DNA of 64,000 nucleotides, from the NCBI RefSeq assembly GCF_002159915.1, contig NZ_NFJP01000023.1, forward strand, positions 1 through 64,000, written 5' to 3'. Shown in pieces: positions 12,619-16,555 of the stretch. The first letter of the stretch is position 1; each line of letters opens with the position of its first letter. This DNA is from Gordonibacter sp. An230. Lineage in GTDB: Bacteria; Actinomycetota; Coriobacteriia; Coriobacteriales; Eggerthellaceae. The notes beneath the pieces are model-generated. The model was not told where the DNA came from. It worked only from the letters and a program-made list of their open reading frames with translations, and ran no database searches. The position numbers and the translations under genes are program-made.

Positions 12619-13434
12619 ATGAAGGCTCTCATTCCCGCAGCCGGCCTCGGCACGCGCTTCCTGCCCGCCACGAAGGCCCAGCCCAAGGAGATGCTGCTCG
12701 TGGTGGATCGTCCAGCCATCCAGTACGTGGTGGAGGAGGGCTTGGCGTCGGCCGCCGACGAGGTGGTCATCATCAACAGCCGCGAGAAGAAGGCCATCGA
12801 GGAGCACTTCTCGCCGAACCCGGAGCTCGTGGCCACGCTGCGCGCCCGCGGCAAGGACCGCTACGCCGACCTCGTGGAGAAGGTGGGCGCCTACAACGTG
12901 AGCTACGTGTACCAGGACGAGGCGCTGGGCCTGGGGCATGCCGTGCGCTGCGCGGCCGAGAAGACCGGCGACGAGCCGTTCTACGTGCTTCTGGGCGACG
13001 TGCTGGTGCCCGACAACAAGATGCTGCCCCGCATGCAGGAGGTGTCCGACGCGCACGGCGGCGCGAGCGTGATCGCCGTGATGCCGGTGCCGGACGACCA
13101 GGTGAGCCGCTTCGGCGTCATCGCGGGCGCAGCCGTGGCCGACGACGTGTGGAAGGTGGACGCGCTCGTGGAGAAGCCGGCGCTCGAGGACGCGCCTTCG
13201 AACCTGGCCGTGTTCGGTCGCTACCTGCTCTCGCCACGCGTGATGGAGCTTCTGGCCGACGTGCAGCCCGGCGTGGGCGGCGAGATCCAGCTCACCGACG
13301 CGCTCGACGCCGTGCTGCGCGAGGAGGAGATGTACGCGCTCGTCATCGACCCCGCCGACGGCTTCGACACCGGCACCGTGGAAAGCTGGCTTGAGACGAA
13401 CAATATCTTGTTCCGCCGTCTTTCCGAGCGCTAA
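12619..13434 (+). CDS. galU: UTP-glucose-1-phosphate uridylyltransferase
   Basis: Makes UDP-glucose from UTP and glucose 1-phosphate for cell-envelope glycans. The 271-residue protein opens with the nucleotidyltransferase signature AAGLGTRFLPATKAQPKEM, followed by the GalU-type segments VVDRPAIQYVVEE and GLGHAVRCA. VEKP (near 180) and GFDTGTVESW (near 250) are also family positions. It is slightly short compared with the usual 290-300. ATG at 12619 has AAGAAAGG upstream. It stands alone between the ccm operon and a non-coding region. Confidence 0.95.
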   Translation: MKALIPAAGLGTRFLPATKAQPKEMLLVVDRPAIQYVVEEGLASAADEVVIINSREKKAIEEHFSPNPELVATLRARGKDRYADLVEKVGAYNVSYVYQDEALGLGHAVRCAAEKTGDEPFYVLLGDVLVPDNKMLPRMQEVSDAHGGASVIAVMPVPDDQVSRFGVIAGAAVADDVWKVDALVEKPALEDAPSNLAVFGRYLLSPRVMELLADVQPGVGGEIQLTDALDAVLREEEMYALVIDPADGFDTGTVESWLETNNILFRRLSER

Positions 13435-13584
13435 CCCGGCTTTTCGGAGGATCCGGATGCCTGAGCTCTGCGGGTCTCGGCGCTGCGCCTTTGGGCGCTG
13501 CGCCGCCGCGGGCGTGTGACAATGGCGACATGCCGAAGGATCGAAGGCTTGCAGAAGGAGCGCGGGGATGCAGAGGGGTTCGAG

Positions 13585-13716
13585 AAAAGATCGGCCCGGG
13601 GAGAGGGGAGCTCCACCGGGCCACAAGGAGGGGATGGTGCGGTGCCTTGAAGGCACCGGCTCTGCTTTAGGGGAAAAGCAGATGCAAACTGAAAAGGAGG
13701 GGAACCTTTCGTTTGC
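13585..13716 (-). ncRNA. C-rich small RNA, copy 1
   Basis: Read on the minus strand from 13716, seven bases after a TATAAT, the sequence folds as a chain of hairpins: GCAAAC/GTTTGC around a loop with CCCCTCC; CTGCTTT/AAAGCAG with loop CCCC; GGTGCC/GGCACC; a single-stranded CATCCCCTCCTT; and a final GGCCCGG/CCGGGCC stem with inner GGAG/CTCC and loop CTCCCCT, ending GATCTTTT. CCCCTCC is complementary to Shine-Dalgarno sequences. A second copy at 15112-15240 keeps every helix with compensating changes. This resembles in design the csRNA/LhrC type of C-rich regulatory RNAs; homology to them is not claimed. Confidence 0.7.
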
Positions 13717-13723
13717 TGAAGCC

Positions 13724-13746
13724 ATTATAAAAGCTGAGGTTGAAAA
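13724..13746 (-). promoter_or_regulatory. Promoter of C-rich RNA copy 1
   Basis: Minus-strand TATAAT (13724-13729) with a conserved TTTTCAA block (13740-13746) ten bases further upstream. Both elements and their spacing are the same in copy 2. No canonical -35 is visible, so activator-dependent expression is possible. Confidence 0.6.
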
Positions 13747-14139
13747 TGATATGTGGCACGCGTGATCGTTTTGTGAATTGGGGTCACTAAAGGCGATTGA
13801 CGCATGAATTTCAATGCTCATATGGGCGGATTTGCTGCCAGCATTCTGGTTGGGCGAAATTGCAACAATGATCATTTTGCTTCTTGTTGTGCATATGCAC
13901 ATTTTTCGGCAGGGTCGACGCATTCGAAAAAAAGGCATCTCTTCGTCGCGGAAAGCCTTTCCCGGCTATCGCTCGTGCCGCGCCATGGCTCCGGTCGGGA
14001 TGCACGGGCCGGGGCGTTCCGAAAGCGATGGCGATTCCGCGGGATGCGCAGCTTTTTCGGGTGGGAAGATGGGCTGCCGTTGCAAGATGCGGAACCTTGG
14101 GAGGGCTTGTGGCGGTGCGAGGCGTGCGATCTAGCTGCA
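13747..14139. other. Non-coding stretch between RNA copy 1 and the flavoprotein pseudogene
   Basis: About 390 bases with no recognisable gene. It probably includes the unrecognisable decayed 3' remainder of the flavoprotein gene that reads leftward from 14864. Short frames here lack ribosome sites. Confidence 0.4.
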
Positions 14140-14864
14140 GGTGGCCAATAACGGCTTTCCCGCCCCGATAGCGCTTCTTGTCGTCCGCGACACGCCGGTC
14201 ACCACGCCCCGGTCGTTTTGGACGCGCTATTTCGCTGCGGTGTCGTACACGAAGGCCGCGCCCGCCTCCTCGGCCGCTTTGAGCAGTGCGGCAACATGGG
14301 CCTGTCCGTACACGAGGTCGTTTTCGTCGGTGCCGCCGAGGTGGATGCGCGGCGCGATGACGCTGGAATCGACGTTGGGCACGACTCCGTTGCCGTGCAC
14401 CGCCTCGTAAGTGAGGCCGAGCTCCTTCATGAGTTCGCTGCCGGACGGCGCTTGCTCGCACGCGAAGCGCGCGAGCTCTTCGTCGAGCTGTCCTTCGCCG
14501 CAGTGCTTCGCGTGCTTTTCGGGCGTGTCGTCGCTTATGCTTGCGAGCGCCTTTTGCCCTTCCGCCCTTCGGTTCCTGCTGCTTTGATGACTCCCGACGA
14601 GTTGATGGTATTGCCGCCGGCCGGCGATGCCGCTTCGAGCACGGTGGCTGCTGTGCCGCCGCGCGCTGCGACGATGGCTGCGGTCAGGCCTGCGCCTCAG
14701 GCGCCGAGAGCAAGGACGTCGGCCTCCTCGTCCCGGTTTCCCGTGTCCTTCTGCGGCTCGGCATTGCCCGACGGCGCGCATCAGTGGATGCTGAAGGCGC
14801 CCGGTCCTGCCGCGATCACGCCCGCTTCCGACAAAAGCTTCCTCCTCGATACCGTTTGCTCCAT
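14140..14864 (-). pseudogene. Decayed Tat-exported FAD-binding flavoprotein (fumarate reductase-like)
   Basis: From the ATG at 14864, preceded by AGGAGGAG, the minus strand encodes a twin-arginine signal (SRRKLLSEAGVIAAGPGAF), then a TGA. The same frame continues with ADVLALGA, a second TGA where a glycine codon is expected, and GAGLTAAIVAARGG, the Rossmann FAD site, followed by LEAASPAGGNTINSSG. A frameshift then moves to a frame carrying GLTYEAVHGNG and AAEEAGAAFVYDTAAK, a TAG, and another shift to ADDKKRYRGGKAVI. The order is that of FAD_binding_2 flavoproteins, which normally run to about 500 residues or more. The remainder is unrecognisable. Intact relatives are abundant in Eggerthellaceae (family knowledge). 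Confidence 0.85.
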
Positions 14865-15111
14865 GGCGAACTCCTCCTCGAATCGCTCTTTTCCGCCGCT
14901 TGGGCGGGCCGTTGTGCGCGACTATGGGCGAAAAGGGCTGGACGGCAATCGCATTGATGATGTGAGTGCCTGTGATTCGGAGCTTGCGAGGCGGTTTGCC
15001 GACTGGAGGGGGACAGGTTGCGCGTCCGCGCGCTTCGTCGTTTTGGCATCGGTCTCGTTAAGCGCGGCAAGCCCGAGGTTTGCCAGAGCCGGTGCGGTCG
15101 CTGAAAGGAGG

Positions 15112-15240
15112 AAAAAGATCGGCCCGGGGAGAGGGGAGCTCCACCGGGCCACAAGGAGGGGATGATGCGGTGCTTCAGCACCGCTACTGCTTTTTAGGGG
15201 AAAGCAGTACAAACTGAAAGGAGGGGAATCTTTCGTTTGC
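15112..15240 (-). ncRNA. C-rich small RNA, copy 2
   Basis: Paralogue of 13585-13716, reading leftward from 15240, seven bases after TATAAT. Helices are conserved: GCAAAC/GTTTGC around a CCCCTCC loop; ACTGCTTT/AAAGCAGT, where the outermost pair is swapped relative to copy 1 (A-U for U-A); a GCGGTGC/GCACCGC hairpin; single-stranded CATCCCCTCCTT; and the terminal GGCCCGG/CCGGGCC hairpin with loop CTCCCCT and five T. Compensatory change plus conserved promoter and terminator argue for an RNA product from this strand. The sequence between the two copies is unrelated pseudogene DNA. Confidence 0.7.
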
Positions 15241-15247
15241 GAGGTCA

Positions 15248-15270
15248 ATTATAGAAGTAACCCTTGAAAA
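15248..15270 (-). promoter_or_regulatory. Promoter of C-rich RNA copy 2
   Basis: Minus-strand TATAAT (15248-15253) and TTTTCAA (15264-15270) at exactly the same spacing as in copy 1; the start would be the G at 15240. Confidence 0.6.
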
Positions 15271-15652
15271 ACATGTGATCAGGTCGTGTTCGTCTTGTGT
15301 AACGACGTTGGGAGTTCAATGAATGGGCAGGTCGCGCTTGTTGGTAAGGCTGTCGAGGTGCGATTTTGGAATCGGGAGGGGCGACGTGCGTTTCGCTCTC
15401 ATCCTTGCTGATCGGTTTCCCGCCCCTCTCTCGACCCCTCCCTTTTCCGCGCCCTTTGTCCGTCCGCGGCGTTGCGGGGTGGATTGGCTTGCGAACGTGC
15501 TTTCTGCGATGGGGTGGGGGGCGGACGTGCGGGGCCGCATTGCGAAGGACTTCGTTCGGGGGGCTGTCGATTAGGTGGTGTCGCGCGCTTGGTTCGCGCG
15601 CCCGCGCGGCGGCGGGTTTTGGTATCATGCGAGACTGACGAAAGGATTTCCC
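15271..15652. other. Intergenic region, nothing recognised
   Basis: About 380 bases between the divergent small RNA and the methyltransferase-like gene. No domain-bearing frame is seen; GGTATCATG at 15630-15638 may hold a weak -10 for the downstream gene. Confidence 0.35.
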
Positions 15653-16555
15653 ATGCCCGATATCGCCTTGCGCTTTCACAAAGACATGCTCGTGCTTTCC
15701 AGCCCCGTGATCCCCGTACTTGCCCGACAGGGTTTCGACATTGAGCGCGACCTCGAGTACGCGTGCCTCGTCGAGCCGGAGGCCGTGCGCGACGCCCTGC
15801 GACTGTGCCAAGCGGCCGGCGCGCAGTGCCTTGTCGCGTGCACGGAGGGTATCACGCCGGCGCGCCTTGCGCATCACGGCATGGAGCGCCGTGCGGAAGA
15901 GGTGGCGCGTGCTGCGCTCGCCGCAGCCTCGGAGCTTCGGCCCCAGCATGTGCTCGCGGAGATCGGTCCATGCGGGCTGCCGCTCGATCCCACCAGCAAG
16001 GCGTCGCTCAATGAGAGCCGCGACCAGTACGCCCGAGCTGCCCGTGCGTTCGCGGGCCTGTCCTTCGACGCGTTCTTTCTCAACGGGTTCTCCCGCCCTG
16101 TCGATCTCAAGTGCGCGCTCATGGGCGTGCGCCAGGTGAGCGACATGCCGGTGTTCGCGTCGGTGGATGTGGACGGCGAAGGGCTCGTGTCTGGCGGCAG
16201 GCCGTTCGAGGACGCGCTCGGAGTCATGATGGACTACGGGGCGTCGGTGGTCGGATTCGCCACGTCCGCGCCGCTCGGCGCGGCCGAGTCGCTTGCGCGC
16301 CGCGCTGCGGGCGCGGGCGGGCTGCCTGTGCTCGCGCAGCTTGTGGTGGGAAAGCGCGATCCTCGGCAAGGAGCCGCCACGGTCGCCAACCCCTACTACT
16401 GCCCCGACGTGCTCGTGGAGGCGGGCGCTCGGCTGCGTGCGGCGGGTGTGCAGTTCCTCCGCGCTGCAGGCGATGCGACGCCTGCGTACACCGGGGCGCT
16501 CGTGGCGGCGAGCGAGGGCGAGGATGTCGTGCGTCTCGGCGCGGAGGTGCGATGA
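15653..16555 (+). CDS. Homocysteine S-methyltransferase-like protein lacking the zinc-site cysteines
   Basis: A 300-residue TIM-barrel-type protein. The series AEIGPCGLPLD (near 103), FDAFFLNGF, MPVFASVDVDGEGLVSGG, VGFATSAPLG and FLRAAGDATPAYTGALVA (near the end) follows the homocysteine-binding domain of MetH/BHMT-type enzymes (GPTG, ADxFxxET, PVFxS, GLNCSxGP, GGCCGTTPxHIxAL). The final block aligns with GGCCGTTP but reads R-A-A-G-D-A-T-P, so the zinc-binding cysteine pair is missing. It may have lost methyltransferase activity or use another metal site. ATG at 15653 has AAAGGA upstream. It overlaps the next small gene by four bases. Confidence 0.6.
   Translation: MPDIALRFHKDMLVLSSPVIPVLARQGFDIERDLEYACLVEPEAVRDALRLCQAAGAQCLVACTEGITPARLAHHGMERRAEEVARAALAAASELRPQHVLAEIGPCGLPLDPTSKASLNESRDQYARAARAFAGLSFDAFFLNGFSRPVDLKCALMGVRQVSDMPVFASVDVDGEGLVSGGRPFEDALGVMMDYGASVVGFATSAPLGAAESLARRAAGAGGLPVLAQLVVGKRDPRQGAATVANPYYCPDVLVEAGARLRAAGVQFLRAAGDATPAYTGALVAASEGEDVVRLGAEVR

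Follow-up and report, generated by a model that had tools for sequence, protein, structure and literature searches.

Two predicted small RNA units and their surroundings

Two units on the minus strand were modelled with a covariance model (R2) in the window, which is the whole stretch of 64,000 nucleotides of Gordonibacter sp. An230 DNA that was analysed. The modelled transcript body of copy 1 was located at 13584-13717 (134 nt, 160.3 bits) and that of copy 2 at 15112-15241 (130 nt, 127.4 bits). These were the places at which an earlier note on this DNA had claimed two minus-strand units of about 130 nt. In the case of copy 1, hairpin 1 was predicted at 13684-13716 with UUCCCCUCCUU in its loop and 3' arm, hairpin 2 with a C-rich loop at 13661-13682, and hairpin 3 with a small loop at 13640-13658, all three being conserved helices. 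They were followed by a single-stranded linker, CCCCUCCUU (13625-13633), which was complementary to AAGGAGGGG and had an opening cost of 0.05 kcal/mol, and by the terminator-like hairpin 4 (13593-13622), with a CUCCCCU loop and then GAUCUUUU. Copy 2, also on the minus strand, had hairpin 1 at 15209-15240, hairpin 2 at 15186-15208, hairpin 3 at 15167-15184, the linker CCCCUCCUU at 15153-15161 (opening cost 0.05 kcal/mol, antisense AAGGAGGGG at 15153) and a terminator-like hairpin 4 at 15120-15151. Each copy was predicted to form four hairpins, of which the last was a G+C-rich stem followed by U's, and the C-rich segments of both were located in the linker and in the loops of hairpins 1, 2 and 4. 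TATAAT was found six bases upstream of the modelled 5' end in both copies (13724-13729 and 15248-15253). The shared TATAAT at a constant distance, the four hairpins and the closing stem with T's, as described in the earlier note, were all present in both units and their predicted folds.

The folding energy was -58.2 kcal/mol for copy 1 and -53.3 kcal/mol for copy 2, with z-scores of -7.1 and -7.5, and none of 200 shuffled sequences folded as well. Seven RNAs of the family, each folded alone, gave z-scores from -5.4 to -7.5, and for none of them was any of 200 shuffles equally stable. Hairpin 2 differed in length between the copies, and its outer pair, U-A in copy 1, was A-U in copy 2. Both the swapped end pair and the change of length had been proposed before, and both were seen in the predicted folds.

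The genome carried three copies in total. The two copies reported before were both real, and the third was on another contig (C12:20334-20462, plus strand; genome G000, stretch L085:8935-9063). In this third copy, both CCCCUCC sites were altered and the promoter box had two mismatches, so that it looks like a decaying or specialised copy.

The two units in the window lay between two plus-strand genes. An NTP_transferase gene (12619-13434, Pfam PF00483), which by our own reading is galU-like, was on one side, and a homocysteine S-methyltransferase-domain gene (15653-16555, Pfam PF02574) was on the other. Twenty stretches of 18-19 kb around family members were compared, of which two were from one genome and one surrounded the third copy of the window genome. 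A homologue of the first gene was found in 16 of the 20 stretches, a homologue of the second in 17, and both together in 14. In one stretch from another family (L199), both homologues (64% and 32% identical over partial length) lay no further than 3 kb from the RNA, and their order was not the same. In genome G007, one copy was located by the galU-like gene (C1:53204) and the other about 2.1 Mb away by the methyltransferase gene (C1:2173313). The region of about 0.8 kb between the copies in the window (14141-14960) gave the impression of a broken coding remnant with several overlapping frames. A 184-aa minus-strand frame in this region (14227-14781) had no Pfam match.

Distribution of the RNA family

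BLAST with copy 1 gave matches in 28 of 100 related genomes. A first covariance model, R1, was built from an automatic alignment and captured only 14 pairs, and it was replaced by R2, for which ten sequences were used and the structure was specified. A broader model, R3, was built from 97 matches. With R2, 98 of 138 genomes in the host's family were positive for the RNA, spread over 35 of 48 genera and carrying between one and four copies each; when only complete and clean genomes of the family were counted, the figure was 73 of 92. From the class as a whole, 396 genomes were sampled, and R2 found the RNA in 96 of them at E ≤ 0.01, of which ten were outside the family and one of these was in another order. 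R3 found it in 106 of the same sample at E ≤ 0.001: 91 in the family and 15 in six other families of one order. Outside that order, R3 gave no members among the 396 genomes. Four of the 15 genomes outside the family were in the R3 training set and eleven were not. Since the R2 and R3 counts largely re-find training sequences, they describe a distribution and are not independent proof, and stricter filters can lose weak members. Genome G282, from another order of the class (R2 E 0.008), was not recovered by R3 and was not counted as a member. The RNA family that had been postulated for Coriobacteriia was thus found by covariance-model search, with a range of one order and mainly one family.

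Carriers named in a pattern scan of 17 stretches were Rubneribacter badeniensis, Gordonibacter pamelaeae, Eggerthella sinensis, Paraeggerthella hongkongensis, Enteroscipio rubneri, an Adlercreutzia strain and candidate species. Tandem copies were present in several genomes, and one genome (G128) had four copies. In several genomes (for example in the stretches L068:8291-9409 and L075:8321-9173), two RNA subtypes were side by side, with hairpin 2 closed by UCUGCUU/AGCAGA or by ACUGCUU/AGCAGU. The same tandem genomes showed two promoter flavours, TTCACAAAACG and nACACAAGACG. The subtypes and flavours stand side by side as if they came from an old duplication.

Structural covariation and strand

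All 37 modelled pairs had at least one compensatory change in the alignment fitted to the model, which comprised 96 distinct rows. The partners were paired in 95.1% of 3288 cells. Shifting them by one, two or three columns lowered this figure to 37-47% and the covariation score from 0.427 to 0.072 or less. Because the alignment had been fitted to the structure, it leans towards it; the margin was nonetheless large. The weakest helix was the inner part of hairpin 1, with 85.5% of cells paired. All counts per unit given below use 93 of 97 rows, after one duplicate and three truncated units were dropped. The helices were conserved in relatives, the opposite of the outcome that the earlier note had named as refuting, and conservation excludes a chance origin of the two predicted units. 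By this comparison, the family was shown to be a four-hairpin RNA with a terminator-like end, a free C-rich linker that is strongly conserved, and C-rich loops, which selection on structure has kept across one order of Coriobacteriia.

Base-pair types were considered as an indicator of the strand and were dropped, because G-U and A-C cells were equal in number (80 versus 80). Both strands folded about equally, with -58.2 and -57.7 kcal/mol for copy 1 and -53.3 and -55.0 kcal/mol for copy 2. In 81 of the 93 units the sense 3' end carried a run of at least four T's, and none of the 93 had its equivalent on the other strand. The minus strand was taken as sense because of its -10 box and this T run. 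A simple terminator scan, which requires an unbulged stem, did not list hairpin 4, and a simple promoter scan of the region gave no -35/-10 pair.

Promoter box and candidate regulator

Each gene of the family had its own -10 box, and in most of them four direct repeats with an 11-bp spacing lay upstream of it. In copy 1, the four CA-centred, 11-bp spaced repeats and TATAAT covered 13724-13777 on the minus strand with no mismatch to a 54-base pattern of this box. In copy 2, the box and TATAAT covered 15248-15301 on the same strand with one mismatch. Across the 93 units the -10 hexamer was TATACT in 46 and TATAAT in 34, a figure biased by the choice of the hexamer for its likeness to TATAAT. CA was positioned at -46, -35, -24 and -13 from the -10 box, exactly 11 bases apart, and each letter was kept in 81-90% of the units. 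The repeats were TTCACAAAACG-like and ended ten bases before the -10 box. A conserved upstream TTTTCAA block had been noted before; it was present, and it turned out to be only the last repeat of this four-repeat, activator-type box.

The 54-base pattern was searched with up to three mismatches in six whole genomes. It gave 17 matches, of which 16 were these sRNA genes; the seventeenth had three mismatches and may be chance, and the reversed control gave none. The predicted promoter box is near-private, in that it matches almost only at these genes in the six genomes. A search at three mismatches would miss sites with one or two repeats, so further members of the regulon are possible. Tandem direct repeats with an 11-bp period upstream of the -10 box are the arrangement of OmpR/PhoB-type promoters, a likeness of geometry only. 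Sites of this family are direct repeats, and for PhoP of Mycobacterium tuberculosis the sequence read is TCACAGC, with a spacer of strictly 4 bp, as stated in the excerpted text of PMC4832192. We infer that a response regulator of the OmpR/PhoB family would bind the repeats, and the copies would then be switched on together under a stress or nutrient signal.

C-rich segments and pairing potential

The linker contained CCCCUCC in 84 of 93 sequences and CCCCUCCUU in 77 of 93 (logo anchored on UCC). With motif regions delimited by fixed windows, CCCC was also found in the hairpin 1 region in 84 of 93 units (71 with CCCCUCC), in the hairpin 2 loop region in 50 of 93 and in the terminator loop region in 82 of 93. 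In five RNAs, the cost of opening was 0.04-0.05 kcal/mol for the linker versus 3.5-5.7 kcal/mol for CCCCUCCUU in hairpin 1. The four exposed C-rich segments claimed in the earlier note were located in loops 1, 2 and 4 and the linker, but CCCCUCC of hairpin 1 was only partly exposed. In three stretches from another family of the order (L087-L089), the helices were divergent, yet GCAUCCCCUCCUUGU was retained in the linker.

The linker holds what we take to be the anti-Shine-Dalgarno core of 16S rRNA, CCUCCUU (the letters of the 16S tail are assumed from general knowledge), preceded by extra C's. Because of this core, the natural interpretation is that the linker pairs with ribosome-binding sites. 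Sites of the AAGGAGGGG type would be favoured by the extra C's. A closer mimicry of the 16S tail, with AUCA before CCUCC, was ruled out, as the letters before the C's vary. Full-length duplex energies ignore internal structure and were set aside, and linker-only energies were used instead. The duplexes of the linker with seven chosen leaders had energies of -18.5 to -24.5 kcal/mol, and when AAGGAGGGG was changed to AAGGAGGTG the energies were -12.3 to -17.3 kcal/mol. The 16S tail, with its letters assumed as above, gave -12.9 to -19.2 kcal/mol with the same leaders. This presumed tail was better than the linker at one of the seven leaders (L178, -19.2 versus -18.5 kcal/mol) and came within 2 kcal/mol of it at L318 and L317. 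Any strong ribosome site could be bound by a motif that equals the 16S tail, and this speaks for a lower specificity than that proposed below.

Candidate target mRNAs

AAGGAGGGG followed by ATG at 2-10 bases gave 148 matches in nine genomes, including overlapping starts and the antisense of the sRNAs themselves. After duplicates and sRNA antisense were removed, 131 sites remained, of which 111 had a frame of at least 60 codons. The filter against the antisense worked on sequence and may have taken out a few other sites, and the site G001:C66 was left out. AAGGAGGGG accounted for 148 of 825 AAGGAGGNG-plus-ATG matches in the nine genomes, versus 677 for AAGGAGG[ACT]G. It was neither enriched nor strikingly depleted, and selection on targets is therefore invisible in the counts.

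Most candidate targets were unshared, and the largest groups among the 111 candidate genes spanned five of the nine genomes. These were a YfcC-like basic-amino-acid antiporter and an arginine/ornithine-antiporter-like gene, each in five genomes. Smaller groups were NapA-like, Cgr1-like, 2-oxoacid:ferredoxin oxidoreductase and LuxR-type membrane proteins, the LuxR label being our own reading. The remaining candidates, many of them unshared, were mixed in function. The family scores of the candidate target proteins were all below curated cut-offs, and several queries were partial. A PadR gene was considered as a conserved target and rejected, since the exact motif was kept in only 2 of 11 orthologues.

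In the case of the arginine/ornithine antiporter, AAGGAGGGG was kept in 8 of the 10 best-matching orthologues, taken from 30 loci (65 genomes had a match), and the sequence further upstream drifted. There were two exceptions: G113, an 85% complete genome, had no detectable sRNA, and G157 had the sRNA without the motif. The antiporter gene of G113 (G113:C24:44321, L219) carried GGAGGAGG instead of AAGGAGGGG. A co-loss of the sRNA and the antiporter motif is possible in this single case. The antiporter-like mRNA would be the best conserved candidate target. The retention of its motif is suggestive only, because close orthologues keep ribosome sites anyway.

Proposed function and alternatives

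We propose that the units encode multi-copy, trans-acting sRNAs of about 130 nt under the control of an activator, whose linker and C-rich loops would pair with AAGGAGGGG-type ribosome sites and block initiation. We give this reading a probability of about 0.64. The linker CCCCUCCUU and the loops would act on a limited set of mRNAs carrying AAGGAGGGG, with basic-amino-acid antiporters and proteins of anaerobic respiration as candidate targets. The number of copies and the repeated motifs in each RNA would raise the dose. To our knowledge, Actinobacteria lack Hfq, and the predicted RNA would act without it. A wider picture is also conceivable, though doubtful. The RNA of the whole order would be about the sole output of the four-repeat response-regulator box, and a mimic of the ribosome tail would reset the translation of energy metabolism (arginine antiport, anaerobic respiration) in gut Actinobacteria without Hfq. 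The wiring would be like that of GacA via RsmY and RsmZ, with anti-Shine-Dalgarno RNAs in place of protein sponges.

CsrB and RsmZ sequester a protein via GGA loops, and it was considered whether the C-rich hairpin loops and linker sequester an RNA-binding protein in a similar way. As would suit a sponge, this structured RNA repeats one short motif in its loops and linker, is present in one to four copies per genome and has a near-private promoter box. However, the hairpin loops here carried C-rich motifs and not GGA, the anti-Shine-Dalgarno core within the motif would be unnecessary for a sponge, and the repeats are unequal, with CCCC kept in barely more than half of the hairpin 2 loop regions (50/93). 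We consider a sponge unlikely.

A broad throttle on translation, in which the 16S-tail mimic pairs with many Shine-Dalgarno sequences and lowers initiation generally, appears quite unlikely. UCC and its neighbours in the fully exposed linker were nearly invariant (in the logo anchored on UCC), and even the AAGGAGGTG-changed leaders paired at -12 to -17 kcal/mol, as a throttle would predict. However, the extra C's before the core are unnecessary for a throttle and favour AAGGAGGGG sites, and we infer that the stoichiometry against all mRNAs would be demanding.

The conserved position beside the galU-like and S-methyltransferase genes would suit a cis-acting element or an attenuator of a neighbouring gene. 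However, the two neighbouring genes in the window lie on the strand opposite to the RNA, the RNA comes with a -10 box of its own, its hairpin 4 is followed by a T run, and the stretch around the third copy (L085) lacks these neighbours, which makes a cis role very improbable. A plus-strand RNA or coding sequence (65-aa ORF, 13568-13765) has hardly any probability: the plus strand folds as well and terminator-like plus-strand sites occur in the region at the number expected by chance (3 found, 3.1 expected), but 81 of 93 units have a T run of at least four on the 3' side of the minus strand and no unit has one on the other side, the -10 box is conserved on the minus strand, and the lengths of the copies differ by four bases.

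The preferred reading, translational repression by pairing at AAGGAGGGG sites, points to a class of regulator, a site of pairing and candidate mRNAs, and it is testable, given the published transformation and lacZ reporter of Eggerthella lenta (PMC9734109). In the human gut, drugs, plant compounds and bile acids are metabolised by this bacterium, as described in the excerpted text of the same paper. A conserved family with a near-private promoter box would offer a handle on post-transcriptional control in relatives of Eggerthella.

Comparison with known RNA systems

No Rfam family matched at the gathering threshold in the window, and at loose thresholds up to E 5 nothing was above chance. The model of LhrC, which is presumably present in the Rfam library, was absent from the matches of the window up to E 5. 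The sX13 model (RF02232) gave 16.8 bits against copy 2, versus a gathering score of 50, with E 2.8. In the titles and abstract starts of the matches listed among open-licence papers, no small regulatory RNA was described for Eggerthella, Gordonibacter or Coriobacteriia. PMC9734109, on E. lenta, contained none of the small-RNA terms looked for. The order-wide family of structured sRNA genes is real and apparently undescribed. The likeness to csRNAs and LhrC that had been suggested held as a shared design; homology, which the suggestion had not implied, was unsupported, with no Rfam match.

LhrC1-5 of Listeria monocytogenes are present in several copies under the two-component system LisRK and impede the translation of lapB (excerpted text of PMC4132741). 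The RNA here resembled LhrC in its multiple copies and in a C-rich motif repeated in loops and a single-stranded linker, a likeness of design and not of homology. In contrast to the two stem-loops of LhrC, four hairpins were predicted here. The csRNAs of streptococci depend on CiaR, occur in several copies and are complementary to Shine-Dalgarno sequences (excerpted text of PMC3091779). Multiple copies and Shine-Dalgarno complementarity were shared by the family here. The CiaR box, TTTAAG-N5-TTTAAG, was searched for at ten bases before the -10 box in that study (PMC3091779), and the box of the sRNA genes had an equal 11-bp period of direct repeats and an equal ten-base distance. Four hairpins differ from the typical csRNA, which has two stem-loops and an unpaired stretch separating them; of the predicted csRNAs, 32 had two stem-loops, 16 had a terminator only, and 13 were also more complex (PMC3091779). 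The CiaR box consists of two TTTAAG repeats, whereas here the logo showed four TTCAC-type repeats (TTCACAAAACG-type) and the phylum was different.

In Xanthomonas, sX13 is a single-copy RNA. It represses via C-rich loops and G-rich target motifs near translation starts independently of Hfq, and regulation was not restored when C-rich and G-rich motifs were both mutated (excerpted text of PMC3771888). Pairing is therefore not fully proved even there, as far as that text describes it. The likeness consisted of stable stems, CCCC or CCCCC loops and G-rich motifs near target starts, and the C-rich loops here were complementary to G-rich ribosome sites by sequence. In contrast, sX13 has three stem-loops and an unstructured 5' region, and the excerpted text described no single-stranded CCCCUCCUU linker for it. 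PhoP-dependent Mcr7 of Mycobacterium tuberculosis is an actinobacterial ncRNA (excerpted text of PMC4038636), and PhoP is of the OmpR/PhoB family (PMC4832192). The family here would likewise be an actinobacterial ncRNA under a regulator of this class, as proposed above, and no relation to Mcr7 is claimed. The Cuckoo/CcsR-type RNAs of Alphaproteobacteria have anti-Shine-Dalgarno-like CCUCC loops. They differ from the sRNA here, which matched no Rfam family and is from a different phylum. The family looks like a further independent arrival at a C-rich, multi-copy design driven by a response regulator, in a phylum that we take to lack Hfq.
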